Part shown: positions 9,847 through 31,632 of the stretch, in pieces
Layout of the letters: each line of letters opens with the position of its first letter
How positions within the stretch are numbered: position 1 is the first letter of the stretch
Origin: a virus
Length of the DNA stretch: 31,665 nucleotides
Reading direction: 5' to 3' (one strand)
Virus record (IMG/VR): IMGVR_UViG_3300036851_000474
Location: 1-31,665 of that record
Notes under the pieces: generated by a model
What the model saw: the letters and a program-made list of their open reading frames with translations, nothing else
The model's database searches: none
Told to the model about the DNA's origin: nothing
Made by a program: the position numbers and the translations under genes

Positions 9847-10367
9847 ATGAATTTCGCAAAGATTTACGTTGGTCTGGGAGTCCAGACTATCAGGATTGGC
9901 TGTTGCCGCTTTATCGCAAAGCATTTCCATCCTATGTGCGGATTCTCCCCGTGCTGGGTCGCTGTCCAGAACAGGCGGCAGGAGTTGACAAATGGGTGGA
10001 ATTGCCTGGAGGCAAAAGACTGGCGATCGAAGAAAAACAACGGCGCAATCAAAAGCCTGACGACATTGCGTTGGAGTTCGAGCATTTTACAATTACCAAG
10101 GGGGACAGCTGGCCAGGTTGGATTGAGAAACCAAATCAATTAACGGATTACTTGGTAATGTGTTTTAAGGAATATAAGACAGCATTTTTTCTCCCCTATT
10201 CAACGCTGCAAAAGACATGGGTTATGCACAAAGAGGATTGGAAGTTGAAATATGCAAAACAAGCCCCCAATCTTAAAAGCAATCCTCCATATATCACGCG
10301 GTTCTGTGCGGTTCCGACAGACATCCTTATGGGCCTTGTGCCTGACGCAATGCGGATGACAGCATGA
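9843..10367 (+). CDS. Putative PD-(D/E)XK nuclease-like protein
   Basis: A 174-aa protein overlapping the methylase stop. GVDKWVELPGGKRLAIEEKQR contains a D followed about 13 residues later by E-E-K, the spacing of a PD-(D/E)XK catalytic core, with the flanking beta-strands expected. The later YITRFCAVPTDILMGLVPDAM resembles C-terminal parts of small phage endonuclease-like proteins. Pairing with an adenine methylase suggests a possible restriction-modification pair or a nuclease for host DNA. I do not recognise a named family, so the activity is inferred. Confidence 0.45.
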   Translation: MNEFRKDLRWSGSPDYQDWLLPLYRKAFPSYVRILPVLGRCPEQAAGVDKWVELPGGKRLAIEEKQRRNQKPDDIALEFEHFTITKGDSWPGWIEKPNQLTDYLVMCFKEYKTAFFLPYSTLQKTWVMHKEDWKLKYAKQAPNLKSNPPYITRFCAVPTDILMGLVPDAMRMTA

Positions 10368-18758: not shown

Positions 18759-18785
18759 AGTTATTCTAACGACTTGAAGCCATGA
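18558..18785 (+). CDS. Cassette zinc-ribbon protein, copy 2, 75 aa
   Basis: Identical to copy 1 through LKRPLGN, then diverges to SYSNDLKP because the attC is lost and the frame runs to the TGA overlapping intI (ATGA at 18782). It is the last cassette. A perfect second copy suggests very recent duplication. Confidence 0.6.
   Translation: MKDGLSKNRKRAKRLLHGVVTKHDGKYVCRCECGGKVLGIESFGRLFTWCDRCSPMVNIVLKRPLGNSYSNDLKP
18759..18781 (+). other. Candidate attI right half in front of intI
   Basis: The 8-mer GTTATTCT at 18760-18767 also occurs at 12463-12470. It is followed by AACGACTTGAAGCC and the intI start. The G-TT at 18760 is in the position of an attI crossover. Confidence 0.4.
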
Positions 18786-19768
18786 TAGCCGCATTGGAAC
18801 CCCGCAAAGCCGATTCGCTGAAGCCGCGTGAGGTGTTTCGACGTTGGCTTGTGACTAAACATTACTCGCCGCGGACGGTAGATTGTTACGTCAATCGGCT
18901 GGTGGATTTCGCCAGGCATTTTCGCCGACCTCCTGCCGAGATGGGTGCCGTTGAGGTTGCAGAATACCTCTCCTATCTGGCCAATTCGGTCCACGTCACA
19001 GCCAAGACTCAAACGCAGGCCCTGTGTGCGCTGGTGCGGTTCTTCGATTCTATTTCCAAATCGCTCGGGAACATCGGTAAATTTGAATATGCCAGCACAC
19101 CAACGCGATTGCCTGTCGTGCTTTCCAAAGCAGAAGTGGAACGCCTTCTCAGTGCGATTCCTGGCACTCCCGGTCTGATGGCCCGCCTTACTTACGGCTG
19201 TGGACTTCGTTTGATGGAATGCTGCAAGTTACGAGTTAAGGACATCGATTTTGACCGGCACGTCCTGATGGTGCGCGGTGGTAAGGGAGATAAGGACAGG
19301 CAGTTGATGTTGCCGGAATCTATCCGCGCGGATTTACAACAGCACTTGCACCACATCAAACTGCGCTTCGACCAGGACGGAGGCTGGCTCGTGCATTTGC
19401 CGGGGGCATTGCTGAAGAAGTTTCCGCATTACGAACGGGATTGGCGCTGGCAATTCGTGTTTCCATCACGGTCCTTGTCTGAAGATCCAGATGATGACCG
19501 GCTGAAACGGCATCACGTTCAGGAAAGCACCTTGCAAAAGGCGGTCAAGCGAGCGTCTGAACTTTGCCAGTTCACCAAACGGGTTACGGTTCACACCTTG
19601 CGGCATAGTTTCGCCACTCATCTTCTGGAATCGGGCGTGCCGTTAACGGATATCCAAAAGCTTCTCGGTCATTCCCGTCTGGAAACAACGGGAATTTATA
19701 TTCATGTCGCCGCCCCATTGGAACGTCGCATCAAAAGCCCTCTCGATTCTTTCAATGGGCATCATTGA
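18782..19768 (+). CDS. intI: Integron integrase (IntI-type tyrosine recombinase)
   Basis: A 328-aa protein. Catalytic residues are in YGCGLRLMECCKLRVKD (Arg), HTLRHSFATHLL (H-x-x-R), LLGHSRLETT (His) and GIYIHV (Tyr). Between the first Arg box and HTLRHS lies the IntI-specific insertion (LVHLPGALLKKFPHYERDWRW, then FVFPSR and RRHHxxE-like RLKRHHVQESTLQKAVKRA) that is absent from XerC/D and phage integrases and binds extrahelical attC bases. It would excise and insert the cassettes. The gene overlaps the last cassette by ATGA and the primase by 14 bp, and shares the strand of the cassettes. Canonical integrons have intI divergent and next to attI. Confidence 0.94.
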   Translation: MIAALEPRKADSLKPREVFRRWLVTKHYSPRTVDCYVNRLVDFARHFRRPPAEMGAVEVAEYLSYLANSVHVTAKTQTQALCALVRFFDSISKSLGNIGKFEYASTPTRLPVVLSKAEVERLLSAIPGTPGLMARLTYGCGLRLMECCKLRVKDIDFDRHVLMVRGGKGDKDRQLMLPESIRADLQQHLHHIKLRFDQDGGWLVHLPGALLKKFPHYERDWRWQFVFPSRSLSEDPDDDRLKRHHVQESTLQKAVKRASELCQFTKRVTVHTLRHSFATHLLESGVPLTDIQKLLGHSRLETTGIYIHVAAPLERRIKSPLDSFNGHH

Positions 19769-21755
19769 TCGCGCCCGCGGTTATATCGCCAAATGTCCGC
19801 CTGCCATCTCGGGCCAAGGTGGTCACAACCAGACTTTCGACATCGCCTGTGCCTTGGTGCATGGCTTTGCGCTGCCGGAAACTGATGCGCTGATGTTGCT
19901 CAGGGAATACAATGCCACTCTTGCAGAAAAATGGACTGAGAAGGAACTGCTTCACAAAATCGAATCGGCGGCAAAGTCGGGCAAACATAATAAGCCGCGC
20001 GGCCATCTGGTTGGTTCGGGTTTGACGTTTGGGAAATACTCAAAGCAGCCTGATGGCAATGGGAAATTCCATAACGCTCCGGTGCCGAAAAACGCCAAGA
20101 AGCGTTACGACATTACTGGCGGTCAATTACCGGGGCCGATGGGTGATGGCGCTCGCCTGCTCATTCAAACACTCTTCAAGGAAGGCGAAGGCATTCGTGT
20201 TGCGCCAGCGCACATCAATGACAAGGGTGATGAGGTGCCAGACGGCAAAGGGCCTTGCCTGCCCCGTGAGGAATGGTTGCGCAAGTTGGATGCGGTAAAA
20301 GGTAACCCCAACGGCATTTTTTCATCATCGAAAAAGACCGGGATCTACATCGGCTTAAATCCAATGCGTATCGGTGGCAGCACAGATAGCGACGTAACCG
20401 ATTTCCGTTTGGCTTTAGTAGAATTCGATAAGGAGCTTTCCTTGGAAGAGCAATTCAAGCTTTACCAGGAATCCAAACTGCCCTGCGCGGCGGTTTTATA
20501 TTCAGGCGGCAAGTCCGTTCACGCTTGGGTGAAGGTGGGGGCCGCCAATCATCGTGAGTATGATGAGCGTGTAAAACTACTTTATGACCATTTCGTGGCC
20601 AATGGTTTTCCACTTGATCCGCAAAACAAAAACCCGTCGCGGCTTTCCAGATTGCCGAACTGTGTACGATTCGACCGGCGCCAGGAACTTCTGTTGCTCA
20701 ATCCAGACTGGGGGTGCGAAACGTTCGCCGACTGGATTGAGATTGCCCAAGGGGGCGCCGCAAACCTTCGTCAATTGCTTATCGAACGCAGGTTTGACCC
20801 CACGCGGAAACCGCCTGAAACACGCTCGGTTTATCGCATGGCTGGCGTGACGATTTCTACTCCTGGCAATCTGACGGTCATTAGCGCACAGGCTAAAACC
20901 GGGAAGAGTGCGCTTGTAGGTGCCTTCATCGCCTCGACAATTGTTTCCGAAGGGACAACAGCGGACACGCTGAGTGTGACCAGTAGCAACCCAAGCGAGT
21001 TTGCGGTTATCCACTTCGACACTGAGCAATCGCTAGATGACTATTGGCGACATGTGGACCGCGCACGGCGCCGGGCCGGCGGGGTTTCAGTCCCGTCGTG
21101 GTTGCTCTCCTACTGTCTGACAGGAATGACACCCCGACAATTGCGTAATGCTCTGAACCTGTCCTTGGAGGATGCCCAAAAGCAATTTGGTGGCGTCCAT
21201 TCCGTTCTCATCGATGGAGCCGCCGATTTGGTGTTGGACGTTAACAACCCCAGCGAGAGCAACCCGCTTGTGACGGAACTTCACGCCTTGGCCATCCAAT
21301 ACAATTGCCCGATTATTGGTGTCATTCATTTCAATCCCGCCTCAGACCGCGGACCGCAGAAAACTCGCGGCCACTTCGGGAGCCAACTGGAAAGGAAGTC
21401 GGAAACGAACCTCGTTCTTACCAAGAATGATGAAACCATTGAGATCCATTCCGAGAAGCAACGAGGCGCGCCAATCTTCAAGGGCATGGGGCCGTCATTC
21501 CGCTGGTCTCAGGAGGCGGGAATGCACGTATCATGCAAAACAGAGATGGATGCCAAACTTGCCGATCAGATAGAAGACCTGCGGTGCCTACGAGATGACA
21601 TTTTCGGTGACAAAGCAACAATGCGATGGGGTGATATGCAGGCCATTATCGCAGCGCGAACCTCTCCGAAGACGGCAGAGCGCAGAATCAAGGCTTTAAA
21701 ACATCACCGTCTGATTAAGGAACTTGGCCAAGGTAATTGGGAGAAAGGAGATTAG
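19755..21755 (+). CDS. Primase-helicase (AEP-like primase fused to RecA-like ATPase)
   Basis: A 666-aa protein from ATG 19755, overlapping intI by 14 bp. Residues about 5-75 resemble a primase-associated helical domain (ACALVHGFALPETDALMLL). The middle holds archaeo-eukaryotic-primase-like motifs: ALVEFDKE, SGGKSVHAWV and RLSRLPNC. The C-terminal half is a RecA-like ATPase with Walker A AQAKTGKSA, Walker B-like VLIDGAADL and IGVIHFN. It ends in a winged-helix-like region. It would prime and unwind at the phage origin. Cassette-linked expression through intI is a regulatory oddity. Confidence 0.85.
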   Translation: MGIIDRARGYIAKCPPAISGQGGHNQTFDIACALVHGFALPETDALMLLREYNATLAEKWTEKELLHKIESAAKSGKHNKPRGHLVGSGLTFGKYSKQPDGNGKFHNAPVPKNAKKRYDITGGQLPGPMGDGARLLIQTLFKEGEGIRVAPAHINDKGDEVPDGKGPCLPREEWLRKLDAVKGNPNGIFSSSKKTGIYIGLNPMRIGGSTDSDVTDFRLALVEFDKELSLEEQFKLYQESKLPCAAVLYSGGKSVHAWVKVGAANHREYDERVKLLYDHFVANGFPLDPQNKNPSRLSRLPNCVRFDRRQELLLLNPDWGCETFADWIEIAQGGAANLRQLLIERRFDPTRKPPETRSVYRMAGVTISTPGNLTVISAQAKTGKSALVGAFIASTIVSEGTTADTLSVTSSNPSEFAVIHFDTEQSLDDYWRHVDRARRRAGGVSVPSWLLSYCLTGMTPRQLRNALNLSLEDAQKQFGGVHSVLIDGAADLVLDVNNPSESNPLVTELHALAIQYNCPIIGVIHFNPASDRGPQKTRGHFGSQLERKSETNLVLTKNDETIEIHSEKQRGAPIFKGMGPSFRWSQEAGMHVSCKTEMDAKLADQIEDLRCLRDDIFGDKATMRWGDMQAIIAARTSPKTAERRIKALKHHRLIKELGQGNWEKGD

Positions 21756-21763
21756 GTCATGTT

Positions 21764-21868
21764 ACCGTCACACCGTCACCCTACCGTCAAACCTACCGTC
21801 ATGACGGTAGTCACCGTCACACCGTCAGGGCGTATATATATATACGCCCATAGGTTGACGGTGACGGG
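21764..21868. other. Iteron cluster, candidate origin or packaging site
   Basis: ACCGTCA occurs at 21764, 21772, 21783, 21795, 21813 and 21821, its inverse TGACGGT at 21802 and 21856, and a near match at 21862. A perfect 22-bp AT-cored palindrome lies at 21828-21849. It follows the primase gene and precedes the terminase genes, so either a replication origin or a cos/pac recognition site fits. Confidence 0.7.
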
Positions 21869-21979
21869 CAGCGGAGACGGTGCAAGGCAAGCCAAGGTTC
21901 TTTTTTGCCTACCCCTTCAAAGTAAGGTTCCATGCGTGACTTGTTTTTGAACTGAGACCAATTTTTAGAAAAAACGACA

Positions 21980-22411
21980 ATGCCAAAGACTGCTGCAACA
22001 ATCCGGTGGACGATCCAGAAGGCTGCGACTGAGTTTGACCGTTCACGCGAGACTATAACCAAAGGAATCAAAGCGCACTCGATTGAGCCAGGAGTGGACG
22101 GCAAGTATTCAACAAAACAAATCGCCGCGGCCATTTACGGCGATTGGGATTCTTCGCGGTTAAAGAACGATGAGCTGGATGCCGCCATCAAAGAAGAGAA
22201 GCTCAAGAAACTTCGAACGTTGGACTACGTGCGAATGTCATTCGTCGTTCTCTTGTGGCGAAGCATGGTCAATGCCTGGAAACAAAAAATTATTAACTCA
22301 CAACTACCGCAGGAGTTAAAAGAGGAACTCACAGCGGACATGCAGGAGATTCCAATTGAAGAATACGCAAGAACTGCAATTGCTGATTCAGGGAGCGAAG
22401 ACAACAAATAG
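21980..22411 (+). CDS. Terminase small subunit-like protein (Nu1-type)
   Basis: A 143-aa protein with an N-terminal winged-helix-like region (AATEFDRSRETITKGIKAHS), a middle helix (DELDAAIKEEKLKKLRTLDYV) and a C-terminal helical part. The gene lies just upstream of the GpA-family large subunit and overlaps it, the usual position for the DNA-recognition subunit. In lambda, gpNu1 binds repeated sites at cos, and the repeat cluster immediately upstream supports a similar role. The 21756-21979 stretch has no other gene. Confidence 0.7.
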   Translation: MPKTAATIRWTIQKAATEFDRSRETITKGIKAHSIEPGVDGKYSTKQIAAAIYGDWDSSRLKNDELDAAIKEEKLKKLRTLDYVRMSFVVLLWRSMVNAWKQKIINSQLPQELKEELTADMQEIPIEEYARTAIADSGSEDNK

Positions 22412-30264: not shown

Positions 30265-31632
30265 ATGATTGATCCGCCTATCGCCCCTTACGAACGCCGA
30301 CTGGCGGAAGCCCTGGCACATCACGAAGCGCAACGCTGGGCCGAAGCGGACAAGCTTTACCGCCTCATTATCGCGCAACGCCCGCGCTGGGCCCCGGGCC
30401 TGTGGAATTACGGCCGGATGTTACACGGGTTCGGTCATCAACAGAAAGCGGCGCTATGCCGCGCGGCGGAACTCTATAGCGCGACCCTGAAGGCCGACGG
30501 CGACGATTGCGACTTGAAAGCCGAAGCGTTTAACAATCTTGGCACCATTCTGCTCGGCTGGGGCCATATCGCCGAAGCCAAAGGTTGTTTCGAGCGATGC
30601 CTTGCCTTGCGTTCCGGGCACCCGCACGCGCGCGTAAATCTGGGCATCGCCTGCCGCGTTGCCGGCGAACTGCACGAGGCGTCCGCCCATCAAAATTCCG
30701 TCCTGCTCGATAACCCGGACAATCCAGAAGCCCATTTCGAGAGCGCGTTTATCCGGTTGACCATGGGCGATATCTCCGGCGGCTTCGAGGAATATGAATG
30801 GCGCTGGCAATGTGACCAGTTTTTGACGACTCGCTTGGTCACCAACCGCCCGCGATGGGAAGGCGAAGACTTGGTCGGCAAACGCATCTTGCTTTGGCAC
30901 GAGCAAGGCCTTGGGGATACTCTCATGTTTTGTCGCTACGCCCGGCTGGTCAAGTACCGGGGCGCCGAAGTCTGGCTCCAATGCCCGCCCGAATTGGTCC
31001 GACTAATGGGATCTGTCCCCGGAATTGACCGCGCTTTTGCCGCTCGTGCTGACGACGACAACGATTTTGACTGTCATTGCCCGCTCTTGAGTCTGCCTCG
31101 GGTGTTAAAAACGCGCCACGGTGCCATTCCGTGCGAAATTCCCTATGTTAAAAACGTCGCTAGGATAGACACGGAACGTCCAAGGATGGCAAAACGAATT
31201 GGAATCGTCTGGGCAGGCCGTCCCGAGCACGGCGGCGACCGTTGGCGATCCACAAAATTGGAGCAATGGAAACTGCTGTTTGGCGTCCCCGGGATTGAAT
31301 GGTACTCCCTGCAAATGGGCGTGGTGTGTGAGCAATTGAAGAATGAGCGGTCAATAACAGACCTGACAGACGGGATCACGGACTTTGCCGATACCGCCGA
31401 ACGGCTGGCCGGGCTTGACCTGCTGATTTCGGTCGATACCGCCGTTGTGCACTTGGCCGGGGCCATGGGCAAACCTGTCTGGTGCCTCCTGCCATGGTCC
31501 CCGGATTGGCGCTGGATGCTCGAACGCGAAGATTCCCCCTGGTACCCGACGTTGCGTCTCTTCCGCCAGCAGGCCAAGGGCGAATGGAGGCCAGTCTTTG
31601 ATCAGGTGAAGGCCAATCTTGTGCGCCTGTGA
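30265..31632 (+). CDS. TPR protein fused to a GT9/GT41-like glycosyltransferase
   Basis: A 455-aa protein. The N-terminal 150 residues are tetratricopeptide repeats (AEAFNNLGTILLGWGHIAEAKGCF, in parts, and ARVNLGIACRVAGELHEA). The C-terminal about 280 residues are a GT-B-like transferase: RILLWHEQGLGDTLMFCRYARLV, RIGIVWAGRPEHGGDRWRS, LAGLDLLISVDTAVVHLAGAMG and PVWCLLPW. Such TPR-GTs occur in phage genomes and may glycosylate virion or host-surface targets. The enzyme's substrate cannot be read from the sequence. It starts just after the terminator. Confidence 0.75.
   Translation: MIDPPIAPYERRLAEALAHHEAQRWAEADKLYRLIIAQRPRWAPGLWNYGRMLHGFGHQQKAALCRAAELYSATLKADGDDCDLKAEAFNNLGTILLGWGHIAEAKGCFERCLALRSGHPHARVNLGIACRVAGELHEASAHQNSVLLDNPDNPEAHFESAFIRLTMGDISGGFEEYEWRWQCDQFLTTRLVTNRPRWEGEDLVGKRILLWHEQGLGDTLMFCRYARLVKYRGAEVWLQCPPELVRLMGSVPGIDRAFAARADDDNDFDCHCPLLSLPRVLKTRHGAIPCEIPYVKNVARIDTERPRMAKRIGIVWAGRPEHGGDRWRSTKLEQWKLLFGVPGIEWYSLQMGVVCEQLKNERSITDLTDGITDFADTAERLAGLDLLISVDTAVVHLAGAMGKPVWCLLPWSPDWRWMLEREDSPWYPTLRLFRQQAKGEWRPVFDQVKANLVRL

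Follow-up and report, generated by a model that had tools for sequence, protein, structure and literature searches.

The locus described here raises the question of what a dense array of short repeats around a perfect palindrome is for when it lies between the replication and the packaging genes of a phage. The DNA analysed (hereafter the window; 31,665 nucleotides) is a tailed-phage fragment from a virus record, and its initial annotation left two options side by side: a replication origin for the upstream primase-helicase or a cos/pac site for the small terminase downstream. Our findings uphold the former, as the same anatomy recurs beside helicases, but not the latter, as the array keeps close to the helicase in genomes with a distant terminase. 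So to our minds, and with a probability of roughly 0.8, the array is the phage's replication origin and adjoins the 3' end of the gene for its proposed initiator, a primase-helicase. The features on which this reading draws are as follows.

18782-19768: tyrosine integrase
19704-21755, plus strand: primase-helicase, the proposed initiator (Pfam AAA_25, 4e-7; PHROG 2597 DNA primase, 1e-43; PHROG 243 DnaB-like helicase, 2e-6)
21537-21746, plus strand: C-terminal domain of the helicase (residues 612-681), a predicted winged helix and proposed iteron reader
Between the primase-helicase and the 143-aa ORF: non-coding stretch of 224 bp with the ACCGTCA array at its start
21764-21827: left iteron set, exact ACCGTCA on the plus strand at 21764, 21772, 21783, 21795, 21813 and 21821 and on the minus strand at 21802
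21793-21810: second perfect palindrome, CTACCGTCATGACGGTAG, formed by two abutting inverted iterons
21821-21862: core dyad of inward iteron, palindrome and inverted iteron, a layout that recurs, built on different words, in about 14 phages
21828-21849: perfect 22-bp palindrome, GGGCGTATATATATATACGCCC, that is GGGCG(TA)6CGCCC, the proposed melting core
21856-21881, minus strand: right iteron set, exact TGACGGT at 21856 and one-mismatch copies at 21862 (TGACGGG) and 21875 (AGACGGT)
21980-22411: 143-aa ORF, putative small terminase
Downstream of the 143-aa ORF: gpA-family large terminase, then lambda-family portal and major capsid protein (Pfam/PHROG matches)

That a primase gene lies upstream of the array, as had been proposed, is borne out by its matches to Pfam AAA_25 and PHROG 'DNA primase', and the 3' end of this gene is 8 bp away from the array. 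The proposed small terminase fares less well: a gpA-family large terminase does follow downstream, but the intervening 143-aa ORF, which is without match to Pfam, PHROG models or phage records, owes its name to position and size only. On the far side of the primase-helicase, the integrase gene overlaps the start of its ORF by about 65 bp, so that integration and replication genes adjoin. The gene at 30265-31632, directly downstream of the capsid gene, encodes a protein of 455 aa that contains TPR repeats and weakly matches glycosyltransferase family 9. An ORF spanning the array (21759-21950) reads as a translation of the repeats and is probably no gene.

In the array itself, eight exact copies of ACCGTCA/TGACGGT (six direct, two inverted) lie within 99 bp. 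The counts and coordinates given in the initial annotation thus hold, and because one-mismatch copies follow at 21862 and 21875, the array is slightly longer than described, ending at about 21881; a further one-mismatch copy (21706) lies within the helicase gene. Start-to-start spacings are as irregular as had been noted (8, 11, 12, 7, 11, 8 and 35 bp), and the 22-bp palindrome proved to be perfect, with no spacer. Its AT-rich part measures only 12 bp and is flanked by seven exact copies on the left and by one exact and two near copies on the right. Such clustering is far beyond chance. The 31.7-kb window holds 12 copies versus 4.0 expected, a count that none of 100 shuffles reached, and only four of these are outside the array; in 60 Markov-1 genomes, the top 7-mer cluster per 120 bp had 4 copies (58 of the 60 had 3) versus 8 in the window, the rest of which shows no 7-mer cluster above 4 copies. 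GC skew does not shift at the array and there is no DnaA box near it of the kind that marks classical iteron plasmid origins, the sole TTWTNCACA of the window being at 10222; a self-sufficient initiator would not need one.

Is this anatomy peculiar to the window? We scanned 2.9 million viral contigs with the queries CG(TA)6CG, CG(TA)5CG and GCG(TA)4CGC. The first returned two matches, in both of which the palindrome is surrounded by copies of another short word and a helicase gene adjoins, and the other two returned many more. At least 12 other words were found around similar palindromes in viral contigs, among them ACCCTCA, AGTCTCA, TCCTCAC, CCTCAGT, CCACAGT, CCGCACC, CCGCAGT, ACGGCAA, TCTTCA, GGAACAT, TGTCAAC and GATTGCA. 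The palindrome arms vary as well (GGGCG, CAGGCCG, GCCCCCG, CCCCGGGCG, GGCGCG) while remaining self-complementary throughout, and it is therefore the symmetry itself that is kept. An inward orientation of the iterons nearest the palindrome is common to the window and to phages whose words are quite unlike its own, for example accctcac[palindrome]aggtgagggt, ccacagtca[palindrome]gactgtgg and gggacag[palindrome]..aaatgtccc. Across 17 representatives, 67 direct versus 19 inverted iterons lie on the helicase side and 24 inverted versus 8 direct ones beyond the palindrome, figures that are descriptive because 'direct' was sometimes named after the commoner left orientation and because related genomes are included. 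Array-bearing palindromes fall inside an ORF of at least 150 aa in 2 of 32 cases versus 24 of 47 (about half) for array-less ones; here as elsewhere, counts across genomes include near-identical genomes. Among GTDB cellular genomes, we found 26 armed palindromes, none of them with an array of at least five copies. From a scan for ACCGTCACACCGTCA, only many-copy loci were used because most of the matches listed were single pairs.

As for the genes next to such arrays (identified with a simple ORF caller in uncultivated contigs), nine of ten large ones encode a replicative helicase or primase, the tenth being a portal from the GATTGCA family; beside array-less palindromes, this applies to only a few of 44. 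The adjoining architectures comprise PrimPol plus AAA_25, Toprim plus AAA_25, AAA_25 without a Pfam-recognised primase domain, DnaB-like proteins and VapE. Replicative helicases, in at least five architectures, are hence the usual neighbours of the array anatomy, whose word is different each time, and in some marine phages a small gene sits between helicase and array. Among the matches listed, the window's own word recurs as an array 3' of a PrimPol helicase (L100) and of a VapE protein (L052). A further test came from seven annotated relatives of the window helicase, selected without regard to arrays: in five, the gap immediately after the gene contains a strong array, unmatched by any control stretch from the same locus, while the result is borderline for one (10 of 275 control stretches) and not significant for another. 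The gap in Paenibacillus phage Hayley is not significant, the stretch examined in Arthrobacter phage Shambre1 and in a Bacteroides finegoldii plasmid contains no array, and the window helicase as a direct query retrieved no relatives from IMG/VR.

Could the repeats instead be small-terminase binding sites as in lambda cosB, with the palindrome at or near the cleavage site? Packaging genes do come directly after the window array, and some other arrays are followed by HNH or small-terminase-like genes. The same option is favoured by the marine GATTGCA family (L225:1648-1854, also L265, L279, L229, L231, L243, L244, L249), where the array and a palindrome of ATAGCG(TA)4 type have an ArdC-like gene on one side and a small terminase (phrog_1482) on the other, with an SU10-type portal downstream and no helicase adjoining. 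Through this exception to the helicase rule the packaging reading stays alive, though with low weight. GATTGCA family apart, the site does not travel with terminase genes in the manner of a lambda-type cos. In Streptococcus, Bacillus and Arthrobacter phages as well as a Streptomyces phage-plasmid, the array accompanies the helicase and the terminase is remote: Arthrobacter phage GlobiWarming, at 43 kb, has its small terminase from base 51 onwards and its array at around 39.1 kb, and the phage-plasmid has its array directly 3' of a primase/polymerase gene and about 9 kb from the terminase. In the annotated helicase relatives, the array is followed by RusA, other nucleases or hypothetical proteins rather than a terminase, and on a 96-kb contig filed as viral an ACCGTCA array (L081:1085-1150) follows an AAA_25 gene and precedes a plasmid relaxase (Mob_Pre). 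Moreover, the sole TerL relative found (L313) has copies of a different word, CGGGACA, 3' of its AAA_25 helicase, and another gene stands between this array and the presumed small terminase. Next-gene identities, remote terminases and L313 therefore suggest that the array tracks replication and not packaging, so a packaging site seems quite improbable to us. An annotated GlobiWarming ORF, gp64 (L316:6475-6816), overlaps the array there and may be an annotation artefact of repeat DNA.

Less probable again is an operator or 3' UTR element by which the repeats, or an RNA hairpin, would control expression of the helicase or the terminase gene. Its location between two gene modules and the strong folding of the strand (z -6.2) would suit such a role, but the fold score stems from the inverted repeats themselves, the words change between phages while the link between array and helicase persists, and the region from 21600 to 22050 has no promoter-like or terminator-like site (GC-rich hairpin plus T run included), nor does the array region match Rfam. 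Plasmid iteron arrays can serve copy control, and the presence of a similar site on the Streptomyces phage-plasmid is consistent with an incompatibility, copy-control or partition site that is not the start point itself. This we regard as the least probable among the alternatives weighed here, given that the window offers no second cluster of comparable copy number as an alternative origin, and that the same arrangement is an origin in a tested PICI (PMC6092414).

The reading we prefer, an origin directly 3' of its initiator gene, has close counterparts among known systems. Pri-rep-ori modules of PICI and SaPI elements (EcCICFT073, SaPIbov1) resemble the window in that short iterons in both orientations lie directly 3' of the gene for a primase/helicase initiator, with a word of its own for each element; their two iteron sets flank an AT-rich site, a layout that the window may share (PMC6092414, PMC7581432). 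In the E. coli PICI EcCICFT073, the gap that follows the primase gene contains 11 copies of GGTAGA, and replicon tests showed that its rep gene is required for maintenance and that deletion of ori lowers colony numbers (PMC6092414), while in SaPI it is the C-terminal domain of Rep that reads an origin located just past the end of the rep gene (PMC7581432). The proposed initiator of the window has its Pfam and PHROG matches in AAA_25, DNA primase and DnaB-like helicase, and we do not class it with the SaPI Rep family. There are also differences. Whereas PICI and SaPI are satellites, the window is from a phage. Its helicase has AAA_25 as its match, and the AT-rich site consists of 12 bp, (TA)6, within a GC-armed perfect palindrome; the EcCICFT073 gap, in contrast, has no perfect palindrome with arms of at least 7 bp. 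On SCCmec, the helicase Cch2 binds direct repeats in the intergenic stretch that follows the cch2 gene (PMC7581432), as is predicted for the window, but there are only three 5-nt iterons and the primase is separate. Similarly, the pRN1 origin lies 3' of a primase-helicase gene (orf904) whose product has a C-terminal winged helix (a prediction in the window), yet consists of a single large stem-loop without iterons, the secondary structure of which is required (PMC4234260). Further counterparts are Streptococcus phages Javan355, Javan273 and Javan249, whose 'repA' helicase is homologous and whose array and palindrome occupy the same place with inward iterons; their word, however, is AGGGACA or GACAAAACC, their AT-rich palindrome lacks (TA)n, and their records do not annotate the array as an origin. 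The alpha protein of phage P4 differs from the window in helicase family and origin layout. It is nonetheless a primase-helicase fusion, too, and binds origin repeats, as PMC4234260 discusses. By analogy, then, the window feature appears to work like the origins of PICI/SaPI, Cch2 and pRN1, from which its AAA_25 helicase and its GC-armed (TA)n palindrome set it apart.

Which part of the initiator might read the iterons? The AlphaFold model of the helicase C-terminal domain has the order helix-strand-helix-helix-strand-strand (pLDDT about 70-79 for this block, mean 64.8, pTM 0.45), and the structures it resembles most are winged-helix domains (70 aligned residues at an rmsd of 3.4, with Z up to 7.1). 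We are moderately confident that the C-terminus is a winged helix. Comparison of its sequence with Pfam and PDB sequences gave no significant match, the best PDB entry being 2ezh, a transposase DNA-binding domain (E 0.17), and the absence of SaPI Rep or P4 alpha domains among the structural matches listed is uninformative either way. A full-length model of the helicase was too poor (pLDDT 44) and was discarded. Within one phage group, the helicases fall into two sets by word, GTGAGGA or ACTGAGGA; between the sets, identity is 92-93% in the primase and ATPase parts but only 74-75% over the last 100 residues. Divergence of the tail where the word differs fits a role as iteron reader; a faster-evolving tail alone could also account for it.

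Based on the features of the array and on the known systems above, a mechanism may be envisaged in which several primase-helicase copies attach to the ACCGTCA iterons by their C-terminal winged helices, and two helicase assemblies are arranged head to head by the inward iteron pair around the GC-armed (TA)6 palindrome. Under supercoiling, the alternating TA core would melt or extrude, each assembly would take one strand and the primase part would prime. With a short word of its own, each phage would have an initiator that acts on its own origin.

Whether this amounts to one origin plan common to phages and mobile elements, with inward iterons and a GC-armed palindrome (often (TA)n) in a phage-specific array, with helicases of at least five architectures and with a word that co-diversifies with the C-terminal reader domain, is a more tentative idea to which we give slightly less than an even chance. 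We found neither such a shared plan across phages nor a GC-armed (TA)n palindrome with inward iterons described in the open-access literature; Streptococcus thermophilus phage origins, reportedly mapped in the 1990s (e.g. Sfi21), may be earlier members. If the idea is true, the sequence could tell both where an origin lies and what its specificity is. Few phage origins have been mapped, and if this anatomy marks them, origins would become callable by sequence in many uncultivated phages. In addition, the array anatomy would tie phage replication modules to the experimentally tested origins of PICI/SaPI and SCCmec, and the pairing of word and C-terminal domain would offer a direct test of how initiators avoid firing the origin of a rival. 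Smaller arrays of GGAACAT-like, TGTCAAC and TGTAAGA words accompany (TA)4 palindromes at six further loci (L232, L233, L237, L257, L246, L261); two of these (L257, L246) adjoin VapE genes and several of the six precede genes for VRR-NUC-like nucleases.
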